In this document: piece by piece, positions 1 through 5,642 of the stretch
Position numbering within the stretch: position 1 is the stretch's first letter
Layout: each line of letters starts with the position of its first letter
Assembly: GCA_017556585.1 (NCBI GenBank)
Contig: JAFYMP010000041.1
Location: 1 to 50,784 of the forward strand
Direction of reading: 5' to 3'
From: Bacteroidaceae bacterium
Lineage (GTDB): Bacteria > Bacteroidota > Bacteroidia > Bacteroidales > Bacteroidaceae
Length of the DNA: 50,784 nt
Position numbers and translations under genes: made by a program
The notes under the pieces: model-generated
Databases searched by the model: none
What the model was told of the DNA's origin: nothing
The model's input: the letters and a program-made list of their open reading frames with translations, nothing else

Positions 1-1
1 A

Positions 2-109
2 GAGTGCTTTAATGCTAAAATCAAACTTTTTAGAGCTAATTTAAGAGGTGTTGCTGATAAGAAATTCTTTCTATTCAGAATTGCAAATTTATTTGCTTAC
101 CCACAGTAA
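2..109 (+). mobile_element. C-terminal end of an ISAon1-like (ISL3-type) transposase, cut by the window edge
   Basis: The frame open from base 2 ends at TAA 107-109 and encodes 35 residues beginning ECFNAKIKLFRANLRGV and ending FRIANLFAYPQ. The pattern (A)E-x-FNAKIK-x-FR-x-x-x-RGV-x-x-x-x-FFLFR is, to my recollection, the conserved extreme C-terminus of ISAon1/ISL3-family DDE transposases of Bacteroidota. The catalytic Glu would lie upstream, so most of the gene is outside the window and whether the element is intact cannot be judged. It sits directly upstream of a tRNA-Lys terminator on the opposite strand. Confidence 0.7.
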
Positions 110-117
110 ATTTCTAC

Positions 118-174
118 TGAGCCAAACTTTCTTTTTTTATTGTGTTTAATTTTCACTCAAACAAGTTTGGCTCA
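118..174. repeat. 12-base inverted repeat after the transposase
   Basis: TGAGCCAAACTT (118-129) is matched perfectly by AAGTTTGGCTCA (163-174), with a 33-base AT-rich spacer. It could be a stem-loop ending the transposase transcript, or the outer copy could belong to the terminal inverted repeat of the insertion sequence. The left end of the element is not in the window, so these cannot be separated. Confidence 0.5.
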
Positions 175-186
175 AATATACACAAT

Positions 187-214
187 AAAAAAACGCCTAA
201 CTTTTCGTTAGGCG
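187..214 (-). terminator. Intrinsic terminator of the tRNA-Lys gene
   Basis: CGCCTAAC (194-201) and GTTAGGCG (207-214) form a perfect 8-bp stem with a 5-base loop. Read leftward, the stem runs into a seven-T tract (187-193) and then ATTGT. It begins about 16 bases beyond the tRNA-Lys 3' end. Confidence 0.8.
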
Positions 215-230
215 CTTTACTTTGGGTTTG

Positions 231-303
231 TGATTCGCTTGGGATTCGAACCCAAGACCCCATCCTTAAAAGGGATGTGCTCTACCTGCTGAGCTAGCGA
301 ATC
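231..303 (-). tRNA. tRNA-Lys (anticodon TTT)
   Basis: On the minus strand a full cloverleaf can be drawn. The acceptor is GATTCGC/GCGAATC with discriminator A. The D arm carries GCTCAGC...GGTAGAGC. The anticodon arm has loop CTTTTAA, giving anticodon TTT. The T arm is CTTGG/TTCGAAT/CCAAG. Length is 73 bases and no CCA is encoded (CAAAC follows the discriminator). It has its own promoter and terminator. Confidence 0.97.
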
Positions 304-328
304 TACCTTATGTGCCGTTAAGCGGGTG

Positions 329-360
329 CAAAGATATGCTCTTTTAGTTTAGTGTGCAAG
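329..360 (-). promoter_or_regulatory. Promoter of tRNA-Lys
   Basis: Read leftward: CTTG (357-360), 20 bases, then a perfect -7 box TATCTTTG (329-336), fitting the Bacteroidota consensus. The 17 bases CTTTGCACCCGCTTAAC from the end of the -7 box are repeated exactly at the tRNA-Pro gene. Confidence 0.7.
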
Positions 361-391
361 TATTTTGCAATTTTTTTCTTTTTTTAGGCTG

Positions 392-2038
392 TTATTTTCC
401 TATGCTGCGCATAAATAATCCACCGGTATGGTTGGTGTTGCCTTTAACGTTTATGCATTTAACTGAATTATCTGTACTGAAAGCAAATGTTTCGCCTCCG
501 GAGATATTCAGGTCTTGCTCGGTGTAAATTGCTGCGTGGCTTGATGCAACATTCAGTAAGTTATTGCCTTGAATGGTAAGACTACCGGCATCAATAGCAC
601 GCGGACGTACATTTTCTGTGCCATTGCTAAATGAATTACCCTCTGTAACAACAGTAATATTGCTCTCGTTAAGTGTAACATTGCCTATTGCATTGATACC
701 TTTTCCGCCTTCTCCGCTGCTCAGAATGGCAATCTCCGATTTTGAAACAGCTAATGAGCTCTTGGCACGAATACCTGCTGCAGATGAATAATCGGCTTCT
801 GCATCGTCATATAATGGATTTCCGGATGTCTGCAACTTAAGATAAGAATCGGCAATAGTGATGTCAAGATCTGCAGAAACGGCTTTTGATGCAGCCCCCT
901 TTGCATCTGCTTTAATTACTGCGTTGCTTATGTTTAGTTTACCTGATGTAGCAATAGCATGTCCCTTAGGACCTGTAGTATTTATCTCTGTGTAACCACC
1001 CAAAATATCAATGTGTGTGGTATCGTTTGCACTATAATCGGCTGAAATGCCATTATCTACAGAGTTTATACGCAATTCACCGCCATACATACCTACAAAA
1101 CCTTCGCTTACGGTAACACCGTCATCTTGTGCTGTAATGTTAACAGTACCACCTAACATAATAAGGTGGTCTTTGGTGTTTATGCCATCTTTAGCAGAAT
1201 TGATGTTAATTGTACCGCAGGTTTTGCGCAGGTGGATATAGTCATCACTGCAAAGACCATGTCCGCCGTATGATGTAATGTTTAATGTACCGCTTCCATC
1301 AATGATTAACTGACCCTCACTAAAGAATGTACCCTTTCTATCTTCTCCTTCCGGTCCAAAATACATAGTGCCATCTTTAAGATAGTTAGTTGTACCACTT
1401 GCTATATTTACATAAACCGATTTTCCACTCTGAATGTTGATAGCAGGTCCATCCAAATTAGTGATATTGGCATCTTTAAATTCCAGAACAAACTTTTTAT
1501 TTTCTTCTGTAACTTCGTCGTTTGCCAACATTTTAAATGAACCATTTTGTGTAGTTCCTGTCAGTCTGTAACGAACCTTTCCCTTTGTAGATTTAACAGT
1601 AACATCTGCACCACTGATAGAGATATCTACACCTTCTACCGATGTGTTGACAGATGCGCTGCTTCCGTTGTATGTAATGACTATAGTTTTTGTTTGTGAA
1701 TATATCTCTTCTGTATCTTCACCATTGTTAGTATATACAGGAGAAACACTGTTTGTAACTAAGTCTTTGAATTCTGTTCCGTCAGGAAAGGCTTTTGCAC
1801 TGCTTACATTACAGTTAAAGGTCAAACTATCAATCTGTTGAAGAGGATAGGTGACTATGCTGTTGCCCATGTAAAACGATGCAAAAGTTTCATCATCGGA
1901 GAAATTTATGGAGTCCATTTCAGCATAATCCATAAAACGTACAATGCCGTTTCTCTGATGAAAATTCACACTTTGTGCCCATGTATTGCAGGTAACAAAG
2001 CCTGTCAATGCCAACAAGAAAAGATGCTTGTTCTTCAT
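392..2038 (-). CDS. DUF4353-type secreted beta-helix protein
   Basis: Last gene of the five-gene operon, 548 aa, overlapping the previous stop by ATGA. A signal peptide (MKNKHLFLLALTGFVTCNTWAQ) is followed at about residues 24-74 by a short two-part module ending in IDSLTF. From about 120 onward there are regular repeats of the form x-I-x-x-S-x-x-D-G-I/V (for example DGINTKD, DDGVTVSEG, DNGISADYS), which indicate a right-handed parallel beta-helix. This matches the carbohydrate-binding DUF4353 family, whose genes often lie beside VTC and CotH-kinase genes. No CotH gene is in this window. No clear type IX C-terminal domain is visible, so its final location (periplasm or surface) is open. A substrate or scaffold role for the polymer made by the upstream VTC protein is inference. 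Confidence 0.8.
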   Translation of the reverse strand: MKNKHLFLLALTGFVTCNTWAQSVNFHQRNGIVRFMDYAEMDSINFSDDETFASFYMGNSIVTYPLQQIDSLTFNCNVSSAKAFPDGTEFKDLVTNSVSPVYTNNGEDTEEIYSQTKTIVITYNGSSASVNTSVEGVDISISGADVTVKSTKGKVRYRLTGTTQNGSFKMLANDEVTEENKKFVLEFKDANITNLDGPAINIQSGKSVYVNIASGTTNYLKDGTMYFGPEGEDRKGTFFSEGQLIIDGSGTLNITSYGGHGLCSDDYIHLRKTCGTININSAKDGINTKDHLIMLGGTVNITAQDDGVTVSEGFVGMYGGELRINSVDNGISADYSANDTTHIDILGGYTEINTTGPKGHAIATSGKLNISNAVIKADAKGAASKAVSADLDITIADSYLKLQTSGNPLYDDAEADYSSAAGIRAKSSLAVSKSEIAILSSGEGGKGINAIGNVTLNESNITVVTEGNSFSNGTENVRPRAIDAGSLTIQGNNLLNVASSHAAIYTEQDLNISGGETFAFSTDNSVKCINVKGNTNHTGGLFMRSIGK

Positions 2039-2493
2039 TTTCTTATCTTAACAGTGATACCATTTAGCCTTAACAGGTAGAAGCCATCCTGCAAACCGGA
2101 AAGATCTACACTCTCTGCATCAGTTGATATTTGTTTCTGTAAAACAACCTTTCCGCTTATGTTATAAACTGTCAGGTTAGAACCCTTTGAATCTGTAACA
2201 AAAGCAGTACCGTTTTGCGATGAATATGCCAGATGTCCATCCATTATTTCTATGGAATTCAATCCTGTGCCTGTTTCAAAAGCCAATTTACCAATAGTAG
2301 AAAGTGCATACTCTGAATATGTGCCATCGGAATAACTGGCTTTCATATTACCTTTTGAGAATGTGATTTTTCTCAAATTTTCCAGATTAAGATCTGTTGT
2401 GCTGCCATCCTTACCATTTATCAGCAGATTTTGAGCTGCCGATGGCAAACTTAGCATAGCACCGGTAACAAAAAGAAGTAGTATTTTCTTCAT
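2035..2493 (-). CDS. Small secreted protein with type IX (T9SS type A) sorting domain
   Basis: 152 aa. Signal peptide MKKILLLFVTGAMLSLPSAAQ. Residues about 22-75 form a module (NGKDGSTTDLNLENLRKITF, then EYALSTIGKLAF) resembling the N-terminus of the next gene. The last ~70 residues carry the classic CTD signature: NLTVYNISGKVVLQ, then VDLSGLQDGFYLLRL and VKIRK. Such domains direct transport through the type IX translocon and attachment at the cell surface; porX and porW in this window show the host has that route. It lies between the outer-membrane barrel gene (18-base gap) and the DUF4353 gene (4-base overlap). With so little sequence besides the two modules, it may be an anchor or adaptor rather than an enzyme. 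Confidence 0.8.
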   Translation of the reverse strand: MKKILLLFVTGAMLSLPSAAQNLLINGKDGSTTDLNLENLRKITFSKGNMKASYSDGTYSEYALSTIGKLAFETGTGLNSIEIMDGHLAYSSQNGTAFVTDSKGSNLTVYNISGKVVLQKQISTDAESVDLSGLQDGFYLLRLNGITVKIRK

Positions 2494-2511
2494 ACGCGTA
2501 TAATTTTCAAA

Positions 2512-3378
2512 TTAGAACTCAAATTTATAATTAAAACCAATCACAGAACTATTAGGATCGTCGCCACTCTTCTGGTCCTGATATTGATAATACAGTTTGA
2601 AGGAGTGTACTTTTTTATAAGTATATGCTCCGCCAATGATATATCTGGTTTTGTTTAATGCAAAATTTTTGTTCAAATTGTTGAACAGCTCTACAGAACA
2701 GTATGGATTAACCTTAAAGTTAGGAATGTCATAATCAATGCTAAGTCTGCTTCTAAAGGCATTGCTTGTCTTTGCATCTTTCCATTCCAATTCGCTCTCT
2801 TTGGTTATACTGCCAGGAATGCCATCTGTGTCGCCCTCTACAATAGCTTCATTATATCTATACTTATGTTCCATTACCTGAATCTTATCATTGTAGGTCA
2901 TCTGGTAACGTTCACGCAAACCAAATTTGAATCTGCCTAATTCATAACTTGCAGATAATGAAACGTATGCACGATGTTTGGTGATGTTATACGCTTCGTC
3001 CAAATTGTATTCCTGGAAGGTGTAATCTACATCGGGATGAACGTAAAGATCTTTGTCATCACGTTCTTCTGCATTCCAAACATTCATATATTTGTAACCC
3101 ATATCTGCCTTTACGCTGAAAGTCTTATCTTCATTTCTATAAAGGCGATACGATAGTCCTGCACCTACAGTCCAACGATCTGTATGGTTGAAATTATCGC
3201 GCATACGATACTCAACCTCAAAATCAGCATTAAACCCTTTAGCTATTTTCTTTTCGGCACCTATGCTGCTCCAGAAACCAATGCCTTCTCCGTCATTGTT
3301 CTGTGCCGATAATGAAGCGGGTAACAACGCTATGCATGATGTTGCAATAATCAATCCTTTAAAAAACTTTTTTCCCAT
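2512..3378 (-). CDS. DUF2490 outer-membrane beta-barrel protein
   Basis: 288 aa with a signal peptide ending in ASLSAQ and a mature part made of alternating aromatic/polar strands: NADFEVEYRMRDNF, WTVGAGLSYRLYRN, HRAYVSLSASYEL, FKFGLRERYQMTY, FKLYYQYQDQ. It ends in GFNYKFEF with a terminal Phe, the usual BAM recognition signature. Length and strand spacing fit a 10-12-stranded DUF2490 barrel. It is the third gene of the operon, 10 bases after the DUF4956 gene. Its position between the polymerase-like inner-membrane pair and two secreted proteins suggests an outer-membrane exit or assembly role, which is inference. Confidence 0.8.
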   Translation of the reverse strand: MGKKFFKGLIIATSCIALLPASLSAQNNDGEGIGFWSSIGAEKKIAKGFNADFEVEYRMRDNFNHTDRWTVGAGLSYRLYRNEDKTFSVKADMGYKYMNVWNAEERDDKDLYVHPDVDYTFQEYNLDEAYNITKHRAYVSLSASYELGRFKFGLRERYQMTYNDKIQVMEHKYRYNEAIVEGDTDGIPGSITKESELEWKDAKTSNAFRSRLSIDYDIPNFKVNPYCSVELFNNLNKNFALNKTRYIIGGAYTYKKVHSFKLYYQYQDQKSGDDPNSSVIGFNYKFEF

Positions 3379-3388
3379 AGTACAATAA

Positions 3389-4135
3389 TTAAAATTTCTT
3401 ACTTCCCTTTACTACGTTGTCAATTGTTCCGAATTCATCCATTACCGGTTCGTAGTATATCTTCAGAATGGCTGAATCTTTCAGAAAATCAACATTGCCA
3501 ACCTCTATTCTTATGATTTTCAAGCCCAGTCTCTTTTCAAGATCGGCCTTTAACTCTTCTTCCTTATCGGGTGCCACCAGTTTGATGTTGTCGTATGTTA
3601 TAAGTTTTGACGGAATATGTTTCATCCAGGTGGTGTTTTCACATACACATAATGCAATCAGGAATATGGAGTTTGTCAGAATCAGCTCAAAATAGCTGAC
3701 GCTGGTAGCCAGACCATTGATTGCCGATACTGCAATAATCACAAAGAGGTATGTCATCTCTCTGATAGGCACCTGTTCGGTACGATACTTTATTATACCG
3801 AATATGGCAAACAGACCCAGTGCAAATCCAATCTTCAGTTTTACACCTCCCATCAGATAGATAAGCATAAAGATGCTGATGCCAATCAGGGAGAAGGTAA
3901 AATAATAATCGCGTCTTTTTGCTTTCGGATAGTAGAAAGCATGTACAATGACTGCAACTGTCAATATATTTAGGCCAAGTCTGATGAGCATCTCCCAAAC
4001 ACCATCCCACATTGGCCAGAAGGGTGTTGCAGTAACACTCTGTGCTATTTCGTTAACTTCATCTCCTAATAGTTCAGTCTCATCTGCCATTGTGGCAAGC
4101 ATCTGGGTTAATCCTCCTGATAGTAATTTAAGCAT
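3389..4135 (-). CDS. DUF4956 membrane protein, partner of the VTC enzyme
   Basis: 248 aa. About five hydrophobic segments lie between residues 48 and 165, including the conserved stretch GFALGLFAIFGIIKYRTEQVP and then REMTYLFVIIAVSAIN. That stretch is the DUF4956 hallmark. A soluble C-terminal domain (about 175-248) has a ferredoxin-like alternation. The start overlaps the end of the VTC gene by 8 bases, so the two are translationally coupled. DUF4956 and VTC genes are regular neighbours in many bacteria. By analogy with yeast VTC, where synthesis is coupled to transport, this protein could be the channel or membrane anchor; that role is not demonstrated by the sequence. Confidence 0.85.
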   Translation of the reverse strand: MLKLLSGGLTQMLATMADETELLGDEVNEIAQSVTATPFWPMWDGVWEMLIRLGLNILTVAVIVHAFYYPKAKRRDYYFTFSLIGISIFMLIYLMGGVKLKIGFALGLFAIFGIIKYRTEQVPIREMTYLFVIIAVSAINGLATSVSYFELILTNSIFLIALCVCENTTWMKHIPSKLITYDNIKLVAPDKEEELKADLEKRLGLKIIRIEVGNVDFLKDSAILKIYYEPVMDEFGTIDNVVKGSKKF

Positions 4136-4904
4136 AGTGGTTAGTTATTTTGTTTATTTTTCTTAATCTTATGTTGAAACGGTTTCTCTTAATTCCGTCG
4201 GCAGTTAAAGCTGTACCTATACAGTATTTACTGAATCCCGATGGATGAATACGCAATTTGCGCAGTATCTCCAATATGGGTGAATAAGTGTTGCCGTCTC
4301 TTTTTACCTCTATAATTACCAGATTGTCCATTGTCAAATCTTTGCCGGAAACTTCATTGTGGAATGATAGTCCGGTGTCAATGGTTAATCTTTCTGTTTT
4401 TGCATTGTTTACCAATGTTATGCGTTCAAAATGGTTGGTGATTTTAGGTGACATATCGCTCAATTTTATGGGCAGGATTGCATAATTGTCCAGAAAATCG
4501 GATGTCTCGTCTTTATATACATTATCTACACCCTCCACCTCTATGCGTTTCTTTTTTGTTCTGCCGTGATTGTTTTTAATCTTGACTTCAAAAAAAACAT
4601 CGCCGGTGGTAAGATACTGTCTTACTCTAACTTTTTGTCTTCTCAAGAAACCATTGTGATGCTTAATGTACATAGTGTAATCATCGTCGTCAAAATATGT
4701 GGTTTGGTATTCCGCATATCTTTTATCATTGATAACCTGCACCATATAGTCGTCTTGTGCCATCTCCAGCAGCTTCAGTAACTGTTCTTCTGTAGCCAAA
4801 TATTTCCTGTCCGTTCTGTTCATAAGACGGATAGCAGACATCTCGTCCAGTGAAATACCGGGCAGAGTCTCTAAATATTTTAAGAAATCGGCACGCATAA
4901 GCAT
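4128..4904 (-). CDS. VTC-domain polyphosphate polymerase-like protein
   Basis: 258 aa, no signal peptide, so cytoplasmic. It has the triphosphate-tunnel fold signature of the VTC family: RTDRKYLA (30-37), RVR (93-95), FEVKIK (105-110), KKKR (117-120), FERITL (159-164), RLTID (172-176), IIEVKRDG (197-204) and FSKYC (224-228). K34, R93, R95, K108, R161, R172, E199 and K226 line up in order with the tunnel residues known from yeast Vtc4, so the catalytic set looks intact. Vtc4 makes polyphosphate from ATP. Bacterial homologues are annotated as polyphosphate polymerase domain proteins, with little biochemistry to my knowledge. It is the first gene of the operon, with a promoter at 4942-4971. An alternative start is three codons in. 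Confidence 0.88.
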   Translation of the reverse strand: MLMRADFLKYLETLPGISLDEMSAIRLMNRTDRKYLATEEQLLKLLEMAQDDYMVQVINDKRYAEYQTTYFDDDDYTMYIKHHNGFLRRQKVRVRQYLTTGDVFFEVKIKNNHGRTKKKRIEVEGVDNVYKDETSDFLDNYAILPIKLSDMSPKITNHFERITLVNNAKTERLTIDTGLSFHNEVSGKDLTMDNLVIIEVKRDGNTYSPILEILRKLRIHPSGFSKYCIGTALTADGIKRNRFNIRLRKINKITNHYA

Positions 4905-4941
4905 AAATGGCGGTAATTAAGAATAAATTACCTATATTATG

Positions 4942-4971
4942 CAAAAGTAGCAATAATATCTTATTTGCAAA
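4942..4971 (-). promoter_or_regulatory. Promoter of the VTC-DUF4956 operon
   Basis: Read leftward: TTTG (4968-4971), 18 bases, TACTTTTG (4942-4949), a perfect -7 box. It lies about 40 bases before the VTC start codon. Confidence 0.55.
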
Positions 4972-5011
4972 GCCATAAAGCCCTTTTTTTCAAAAAAAGC
5001 AGAAATACTTA

Positions 5012-5042
5012 CTTGTTATTTATCATACTTGCACTATCTTTA
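5012..5042 (+). promoter_or_regulatory. Promoter of frr-rsgA
   Basis: CTTG (5012-5015), 19 bases, TATCTTTA (5035-5042), one mismatch from each box. The frr ATG is 40 bases downstream. Confidence 0.5.
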
Positions 5043-5081
5043 CATTCCAACAAAATACTACAACATAAAAATTGAAGAATT

Positions 5082-5642
5082 ATGTTCGATATTGATGAAT
5101 GCCTGATGCAGGCTGAAGAGATGATGGAGATGGCCATCATCCACTTAGAAGACGAATTTGCACACATACGTGCAGGTAAAGCAAATGTTCGCATCTTGGA
5201 TGATATTCGTGTGGATTCATACGGATCTATGGTTCCGTTGAACAACGTGTCAGCTCTGTCCACCCCCGATGCTCGTACAATAGCAATTCGTCCTTGGGAT
5301 AAGGGAATGATTAAAGTTATTGAAAAAGCAATAATCGATTCACCGGTGGGTATTATGCCAAGTAACAATGGTGAAGTAATCAGACTTGCTATTCCACCGT
5401 TGACCGAAGAACGTCGTAGGGATTTGGTTAAGCAGAGCGGTAAGGCAAACGAAGCTACAAAGGTTTCTATCCGTAATGCTCGTCGCGATACCATCGATGC
5501 TTTGAAAAAGGCATTGAAGGATGGTCTGCCTGAAGATGCAGAAAAAGATGCAGAAGAGAAATTGCAGAAACTGCACGACAAGTTTATAAAGAAGGCAGAA
5601 GAACTCTTTGCTGAAAAGGAAAAAGAGATAATGACAATTTGA
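5082..5642 (+). CDS. frr: Ribosome recycling factor
   Basis: 186 aa, the normal length for RRF. It works with EF-G to split the post-termination ribosome. Recognisable features are [22 protein letters not shown] (at about residues 28-50), ISxxDARTIxIxPWDK-like text ([19 protein letters not shown]) and the closing helix [23 protein letters not shown]. These span the long-helix bundle and the small alpha/beta domain. The stop overlaps the first in-frame TTG of rsgA, and the real rsgA ATG follows 8 bases later, so the pair is co-transcribed. Confidence 0.97.

Follow-up and report, generated by a model that had tools for sequence, protein, structure and literature searches.

A VTC-DUF4956 operon of a Bacteroidaceae bacterium as a candidate phosphopolymer unit with its own surface protein

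Here we describe a five-gene operon near the start of a 50,784-nucleotide stretch of DNA (contig JAFYMP010000041.1, assembly GCA_017556585.1) from a Bacteroidaceae bacterium whose genome is a 2.09-Mb draft, 82.8% complete; this whole stretch is called the window below. VTC enzymes are a eukaryotic route to polyphosphate, and the operon begins with a gene for a VTC-domain protein, followed by genes for a DUF4956 membrane protein, a DUF2490 barrel-family protein, a small protein with the sorting tail of the type IX secretion system (T9SS), and a beta-helix protein of the Cthe_2159 family, of which we take DUF4353 to be the former name. A preliminary description of this DNA had proposed that the five genes, read from one promoter, make a phosphopolymer, move it outward and bind it at the cell surface. 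All five open reading frames are indeed present on the minus strand within 392-4904, and Pfam and NCBIfam confirm the five named families. In order of transcription, with lengths in amino acids (aa), the features are:

4942..4971, minus strand: promoter-like site TTTG-N18-TACTTTTG, 67 to 38 bases 5' of the VTC start (pattern scan)
4128..4904, minus strand: VTC-domain protein of triphosphate-tunnel fold, putative polyphosphate polymerase, 258 aa (Pfam VTC, 2.1e-32)
3389..4135, minus strand: DUF4956 membrane protein, 248 aa (Pfam DUF4956, 2.8e-55)
2512..3378, minus strand: DUF2490 outer-membrane beta-barrel family protein, 288 aa (Pfam DUF2490, 4.8e-30)
2035..2493, minus strand: mini T9SS type A substrate, 152 aa (NCBIfam Por_Secre_tail, 1.7e-9; Pfam, 2.5e-7)
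392..2038, minus strand: Cthe_2159-type beta-helix protein, 548 aa (Pfam Cthe_2159, 1.5e-47)

The junctions between these genes, again as transcribed, are -8, +10, +18 and -4 bases, so the earlier statement that all overlaps and gaps stay under 20 bases holds. The site before VTC matches what we take to be the Bacteroidetes-type consensus, for which no chance expectation was computed. A sigma-70 scan of positions 1-5600 returned 21 sites against a shuffle mean of 19.5, no better than chance. A promoter conserved across the genus was rejected, the pattern matches lying at differing places or being missing.

Conservation was followed in samples of 149 class, 198 order and 261 family genomes, the family sample including the genus; the co-occurrence counts take no account of kinship among the genomes. 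Among the class genomes VTC is present in 69, DUF4956 in 81, DUF2490 in 118, CotH in 85, PPK in 118 and Cthe_2159 in 3. Every one of the 69 genomes with VTC carries DUF4956 as well, against 12 of the 80 without VTC, a co-occurrence far beyond chance. Cthe_2159 is found in 32/198 order and 168/261 family genomes, and VTC in 102 and 164 of them, respectively. The neighbourhoods themselves were compared at 121 VTC loci, consisting of the window and 120 others fetched as a subset of those found, and were scored by profiles built in this analysis. The 17 genus loci are the window and all 16 other VTC genomes; the 24 family loci were picked from 164 VTC genomes to spread across genera; the 40 order loci come from 102 VTC genomes, about half of them mostly from genomes with Cthe_2159 matches; and the 40 class loci were taken from 69 VTC genomes, mostly by top VTC score. 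DUF4956 adjoins VTC in 117 of the 121 (genus 17/17, family 24/24, order 38/40, class 38/40), and DUF2490 is near VTC in 88 (16/17, 23/24, 22/40 and 27/40). The helix gene is near VTC in 31 (5/17, 17/24, 9/40 and 0/40), where the order count is inflated because about 10 of the loci chosen by Cthe_2159 already had a helix match near VTC. CotH, scored with a kinase-domain-only profile, is likewise near VTC in 31 (0/17, 1/24, 9/40 and 21/40). A small tailed protein lies downstream of VTC in 15 of the 17 genus loci and 12 of the 24 family loci, and a small protein stands immediately 5' of the helix gene in 17 of the 121 (3 genus, 12 family, 2 order).

A second collection, of 80 named loci, was made up of the top-ranking DUF4956 matches to the window, of which there are at least 551, and is biased to near relatives, the nearest being gut and rumen Bacteroidales assemblies, several of them labelled Bacteroidaceae. 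VTC stands beside DUF4956 in 78 of these, and DUF2490 is found in 74, the helix in 38, the small tailed protein in 18, the whole set in 14 and CotH in 2. From the locus counts across genus, family, order and class it follows that the core gene set is class-wide, and that the complete set of five belongs chiefly to the window's family. The preliminary description had looked to co-occurrence beyond close relatives: the core has it, whereas the full set recurs mainly nearer home. Some loci depart from the pattern. Thirteen (L086-L095 and L111-L113) have no DUF2490 match near VTC, and the VTC proteins of L088, L092, L111 and L112 are only 20-22% identical to that of the window; these four are the ones aligned, and the barrel may therefore be missing from a diverged branch of VTC. 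An apparent VTC-DUF4956 fusion in Bacteroides cellulosilyticus (L163) was rejected, as its single frame crosses a stretch of N, and no VTC relative was confirmed in viral contigs.

The likeness to eukaryotic VTC enzymes goes beyond the Pfam match. A VTC profile search of the PDB returned Vtc2 (1.1e-8) and Vtc4 (3g3q, 2.4e-8), and when an AlphaFold model of the protein (pLDDT 95.8) was submitted to Foldseek, the 13 top matches were Vtc chains and the next was the tripolyphosphatase ygiF, with 15-17% identity in the best Vtc matches. The residues aligned to R196, K200, R264, R266, E426 and K458 of Vtc4 are invariant in two sets of aligned sequences (23/23 and 48/48); K200, which we take to be an active-site residue, fits by counting. 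R264, R266, E426 and K458 are named in print as active-site residues (PMC9911596, PMC4641920). Glutamates 2, 4, 90 and 171 of AtTTM3 form the acidic patch of tunnel enzymes, three acidic-patch glutamates bind the second catalytic metal in ygiF, and in Vtc4 basic residues replace the patch (PMC4641920). The positions that match AtTTM3 2, 4 and 171 are here R30, D32 and K201, two basic and one acidic. R30 and K201 are invariant in all 23 and all 48 sequences, as is the lysine that matches the catalytic Lys-458 of Vtc4, and position 32 is aspartate in 48/48 of one set and, in the other, aspartate in 19 and glutamate in 4 of 23. Vtc chains head the structural ranking, and of the three second-metal positions that could be mapped, two carry a basic residue like Vtc4. 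The comparison thus favours a polymerase-like protein, with caution at position 32, and favours the synthesis of polyphosphate from ATP as its predicted activity.

The yeast complex (Vtc1/Vtc3/Vtc4), in which cytosolic synthesis is coupled to membrane translocation (PMC9911596), is one of the nearest known counterparts. It shares with the window's proteins the tunnel-enzyme fold, the six compared active-site residues and the combination of a cytosolic domain with a membrane part. Unlike in yeast, no SPX domain was found here by Pfam, the modelled VTC chain is itself free of membrane helices, and the membrane part is a separate protein, DUF4956, without a structural match. The model of DUF4956 (pLDDT 83.5) has five long helices (43-72, 76-95, 99-118, 124-142 and 148-167) followed by a small alpha-beta domain of ferredoxin/ACT-like type. 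A sequence search found no solved relative for it, the two matches (E 0.33 and 0.35) being interleukin-34, and Foldseek found nothing at or below 1e-3, with ACT-domain proteins including AcuB among the weak matches. Many invariant or near-invariant residues fall in two motifs, YYPKxKRRDYYFTF and YRTExxPIREMTYLF, and by the positive-inside rule both would face the cytosol. A Streptococcus relative is described with four membrane segments and an ACT domain (PMC12345266). For DUF2490 the literature has an entry among putative porins, family TC 1.B.81, with functions not established (PMC4827864). The same adjacent DUF4956/DUF2490 pair appears in an expression table of Bacteroides thetaiotaomicron as BT3498-BT3499, where the portion available names the two by domain alone (PMC10434189).

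The fourth gene encodes a very short protein, with little beyond its signal peptide (signal peptides of window proteins were judged by eye), a short N-terminal domain and a C-terminal sorting tail scoring 37.5 bits against an NCBIfam cut-off of 23. Signal peptide and tail are those of a T9SS type A substrate; its small size sets it apart. A lysine of the type A tail is reported to contact PorV (PMC10994853), and the small proteins inspected end in a basic strand. The translocon component SprA, the sole T9SS part searched for, is encoded in this genome (G000:C16) and in 36 of 41 genomes tested, and small proteins, with loci matched by hand, occur in 26 of the 36 genomes with SprA against 1 of the 5 without (p 0.04).

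The fifth gene encodes a Cthe_2159 domain (162.6 bits against a Pfam cut-off of 25.8) with a solved relative, 4peu, at 6.9e-11 by phmmer. We take 4peu and 4phb to be Cthe_2159 of Clostridium thermocellum. The window's helix protein belongs to the same beta-helix family by Pfam and phmmer but is longer, has an extra N-terminal region and is encoded together with a T9SS mini-protein. It has a plain signal peptide, and no sorting tail was found on it by Pfam, NCBIfam or a tail profile built here. Comparison of helix proteins across loci revealed a pattern: where a small protein is encoded immediately upstream, the helix has a plain signal peptide in 27/27 cases, and among the others a lipoprotein signal is present in 33/38.

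This count uses 65 of 77 helix rows, with lipoprotein signals called by an in-house rule, not SignalP. Rows were dropped as duplicates (L168, L169, L172, L173), as lying at a contig edge (L204), or as truncated or mis-started (L062 at 429 aa, L078, L190, L195, L208 at 251 aa, L227). L080 was dropped too, having a possible fused tail, no small protein upstream and a signal peptide that looks plain by eye despite a cysteine picked up by the rule; counted as plain, it makes the lipoprotein count 33/39. By eye, L185 and L223 were relabelled as having a small protein upstream, its tail weak or missed by the profiles, L069 was relabelled as having a signal peptide and not a lipobox, and L216 (638 aa) was labelled as without cargo despite a weak small tail match downstream. 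The unedited counts are no lipobox in 26/27 with a small protein upstream and a lipobox in 36/50 otherwise. The fused sorting tails of L080 and L052, convincing by eye, were found by no profile and were set aside.

The two proteins also appear to share a domain. In a single profile comparison, the N-terminal regions of 29 plain-signal helices (small protein upstream in 27, downstream in 2) matched the domain of 28 small proteins with a probability of 84.9% (E 6e-6), against 0.9%, no match, for the 33 lipoprotein helices. Against single helices, the mini-protein profile gave 4e-17 for L070, with the others weak and the window's own helix at E 0.08; BLASTP between the N-terminal regions of the window's small protein and helix found nothing. 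The overlap of small gene and helix gene is exactly 4 bases in 14 of 25 non-duplicate pairs measured. As a side observation, L207, L214 and L225 have two tandem helix genes, one encoding a lipoprotein and the other a protein that has a plain signal peptide and, close to the N-terminus, a motif of GDVNGD type.

Taken together, these comparisons of sequence suggest that small protein and helix behave as a matched pair, a new observation. Because the plain signal peptide occurs where the small protein precedes the helix, and because both have the N-terminal domain in common, we put forward, as our best new lead, a split T9SS substrate: the mini-protein would be a detachable sorting tag that pairs, through the shared domain, with the tail-less helix and carries it through the translocon, and relatives without the mini-protein would use a lipid anchor for the same surface delivery. 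We hold this idea tentatively and regard it as unlikely on present evidence. Several findings run counter to it. A tree of the 65 helix proteins has at least four changes of the route label on branches with good support, yet it yields no more than 4 independent pairs (mean 2.8 agree, 0 disagree, 1.2 no difference; p 0.25), so kinship could explain much of the pattern. Ten of the 17 genus loci have the small T9SS gene without a helix gene in the fetched stretch, and for 6 of those 10 the genome is without any Cthe_2159 match, so the small protein must have a use of its own or another partner. In L042, L154 and L155, close relatives, the helix is a lipoprotein and the small protein comes after it. 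In a literature search on T9SS piggyback secretion, such a case is named by none of the 20 titles listed out of 125. If a small tailed protein does carry a tail-less partner through the T9SS, cargo searches that rely on tails alone would miss proteins.

The compartments are plausible, with VTC in the cytosol, the five-helix DUF4956 in a membrane, DUF2490 in an outer-membrane barrel family and a T9SS with SprA. We propose the following. The cytosolic VTC tunnel enzyme, whose fold and site are observed, would extend an inorganic polyphosphate chain from ATP. DUF4956, its observed neighbour, would hold VTC at the inner membrane and take the chain up or across, much as yeast VTC subunits carry a membrane part within the same polypeptide. 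The DUF2490 barrel would serve the outer membrane step, either as a conduit or as an anchor. Finally, the small T9SS-tailed protein would bring the helix to the surface, a route that the comparison above supports, and the helix might there bind the polymer or attach the cell. In about half of the class loci fetched (21/40) a CotH-type protein is near VTC instead. Polymer identity, export and surface binding are what we infer; the synthesis half is supported by predicted fold, active site and partnership, short of proof. The preliminary description's synthesis-and-surface system thus survives as a recurring gene unit whose VTC protein looks polymerase-like at two of three mapped positions. We put the probability of this proposal, a bacterial phosphopolymer unit of VTC type that has a dedicated surface protein and works in these steps, at roughly 0.42. 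A widespread bacterial VTC relative with a membrane partner would offer a simple genetic system in which to study the passage of the chain through a membrane and its role beyond it.

Several observations weigh against this proposal. Residue 32 is acidic, as in the hydrolases, and for the fourth patch residue, Glu-90 of AtTTM3, no certain counterpart was mapped. DUF4956 as a known channel was tried and found no structural match in Foldseek. VTC does not track PPK, which occurs in 53/69 class genomes with VTC and 65/80 others (p 0.55), and VTC as a substitute for PPK is not supported at class level; no match to PPK family PF02503 was found in this genome, at its 82.8% completeness. In Streptococcus intermedius, deletion of the DUF4956-like gene or of CotH changed Pel and aggregation, the former giving more Pel and the latter less, and the available text reports no change in either for the polymerase deletion (PMC12345266). 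This speaks against the polymer being the chief product of the system in that species. That partial genetic test of the CotH-VTC-DUF4956 trio is missing from the preliminary description, as is the small protein/helix pair.

The same experiments are an argument for a regulatory reading, in which VTC and DUF4956 would act as sensors of phosphate or nucleotide status and set how much matrix or adhesin is displayed, any polymer being an internal signal that is not exported. It would suit an ACT-like domain joined to a membrane portion that has been called MgtC-like in the literature, the AcuB-type proteins among the weak Foldseek matches, the direction of the S. intermedius effects and the company of CotH, polyphosphate polymerase and DUF4956 in Gram-positive Pel loci (PMC7112168). 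By itself it leaves unexplained why the barrel (74/80) and the helix (38/80) share the neighbourhood in the 80 named loci. We consider it possible, though unlikely.

The Pel loci can also be compared with the operon itself. Their accessory genes, CotH-PPP-DUF4956(-DUF4832), including SIR_1592-1594 of S. intermedius, likewise place a VTC-type polymerase beside DUF4956 with a secreted partner; unlike them, the operon here has as partners a Cthe_2159 helix, a small T9SS protein and an outer-membrane barrel. The S. intermedius authors state that they met the arrangement of three genes nowhere but at the Pel locus (PMC12345266), and VTC genes are described near CotH in Clostridium perfringens (PMC2879425). 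VTC, DUF4956 and CotH lie within about 5 kb of one another in 29 of our 121 loci, where Pel genes were not looked for. Literature searches found no paper with both 'DUF4956' and 'VTC domain', and none with both 'polyphosphate polymerase domain' and 'Bacteroid', spelling variants being outside these searches.

In the window VTC and DUF4956 are adjacent and Pfam finds no CotH among the five operon genes, so the operon is without CotH, as the preliminary description said, but the genome has CotH on another contig: it carries three CotH matches, one of them placed on contig C7. A version without CotH standing apart is too strong a claim, because CotH is present somewhere in 68 of the 69 class genomes with VTC, against 17/80 without VTC; the sole exception, G073, has a Cthe_2159 gene in its VTC operon. 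The CotH proteins near VTC in the class loci include many with a T9SS tail of their own. Helix and CotH are never both near VTC in the fetched loci (0/121, with 31 loci having the one and 31 the other, counts uncorrected for kinship and part of the loci having been picked for the helix). Strict mutual exclusion was rejected in favour of a tendency, one of the best 80 named loci (L177) having both. Since CotH is in near-constant company with VTC, one may speculate that an exported chain feeds CotH kinases: could kinases sent out of the cell, into surroundings presumably poor in ATP, draw on it? The CotH gene at L231:4141-5811, on another contig of this genome, encodes 556 aa that begin, by eye, with a signal peptide and in which Pfam found no T9SS tail, and lies beside a GDSL-type esterase-like gene (by eye).

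The small T9SS and helix genes may instead be passengers that share the promoter of the VTC core and act elsewhere, for example in binding plant fibre in the gut. The founding Cthe_2159 protein is reported to bind cellulose and polygalacturonic acid, and cellulose and pectin components are the ligands reported for such proteins (PMC6712302). Some genomes of the family, G474 and G502 among them, have helix genes well away from VTC, and 90 of the 121 loci have no helix near the core. Set against this, no more than about 5 kb separates the helix from DUF4956 in 38/80 named loci and from VTC in 31/121, order loci chosen for helix genes included; it stands before or after the core across several families; and VTC occurs in 24 of 32 helix-bearing order genomes, compared with 102/198 overall. 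We judge such passengers quite unlikely. That VTC is a triphosphate hydrolase or another tunnel enzyme is improbable: many enzymes of the fold are hydrolases or cyclases, every aligned sequence has an acidic residue at position 32, like Glu-4 of AtTTM3, and ygiF follows directly in the structural ranking, but the Vtc chains rank above the hydrolases, two of the three mapped second-metal positions are basic and the Lys-458 counterpart never varies.

Other proteins recur beside VTC, mainly in order and class loci (L031-L150). One small secreted-looking protein, of median 137 aa, is found at 38 loci and usually stands two genes ahead of VTC; another, of median 188 aa, is found at 33, immediately before it. 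When a long example of either was submitted to Pfam, the matches were weak. A further protein, about 355 aa long and by eye of HlyD-type membrane-fusion character, stands immediately before VTC in 11 order and class loci (e.g. L089:7716-8813, in which Pfam found nothing). In the window itself (190-303), a tRNA-Lys gene lies 88 bases 3' of the helix gene on the same strand and is followed by a terminator-like hairpin, and transcription of the operon may extend into this tRNA.

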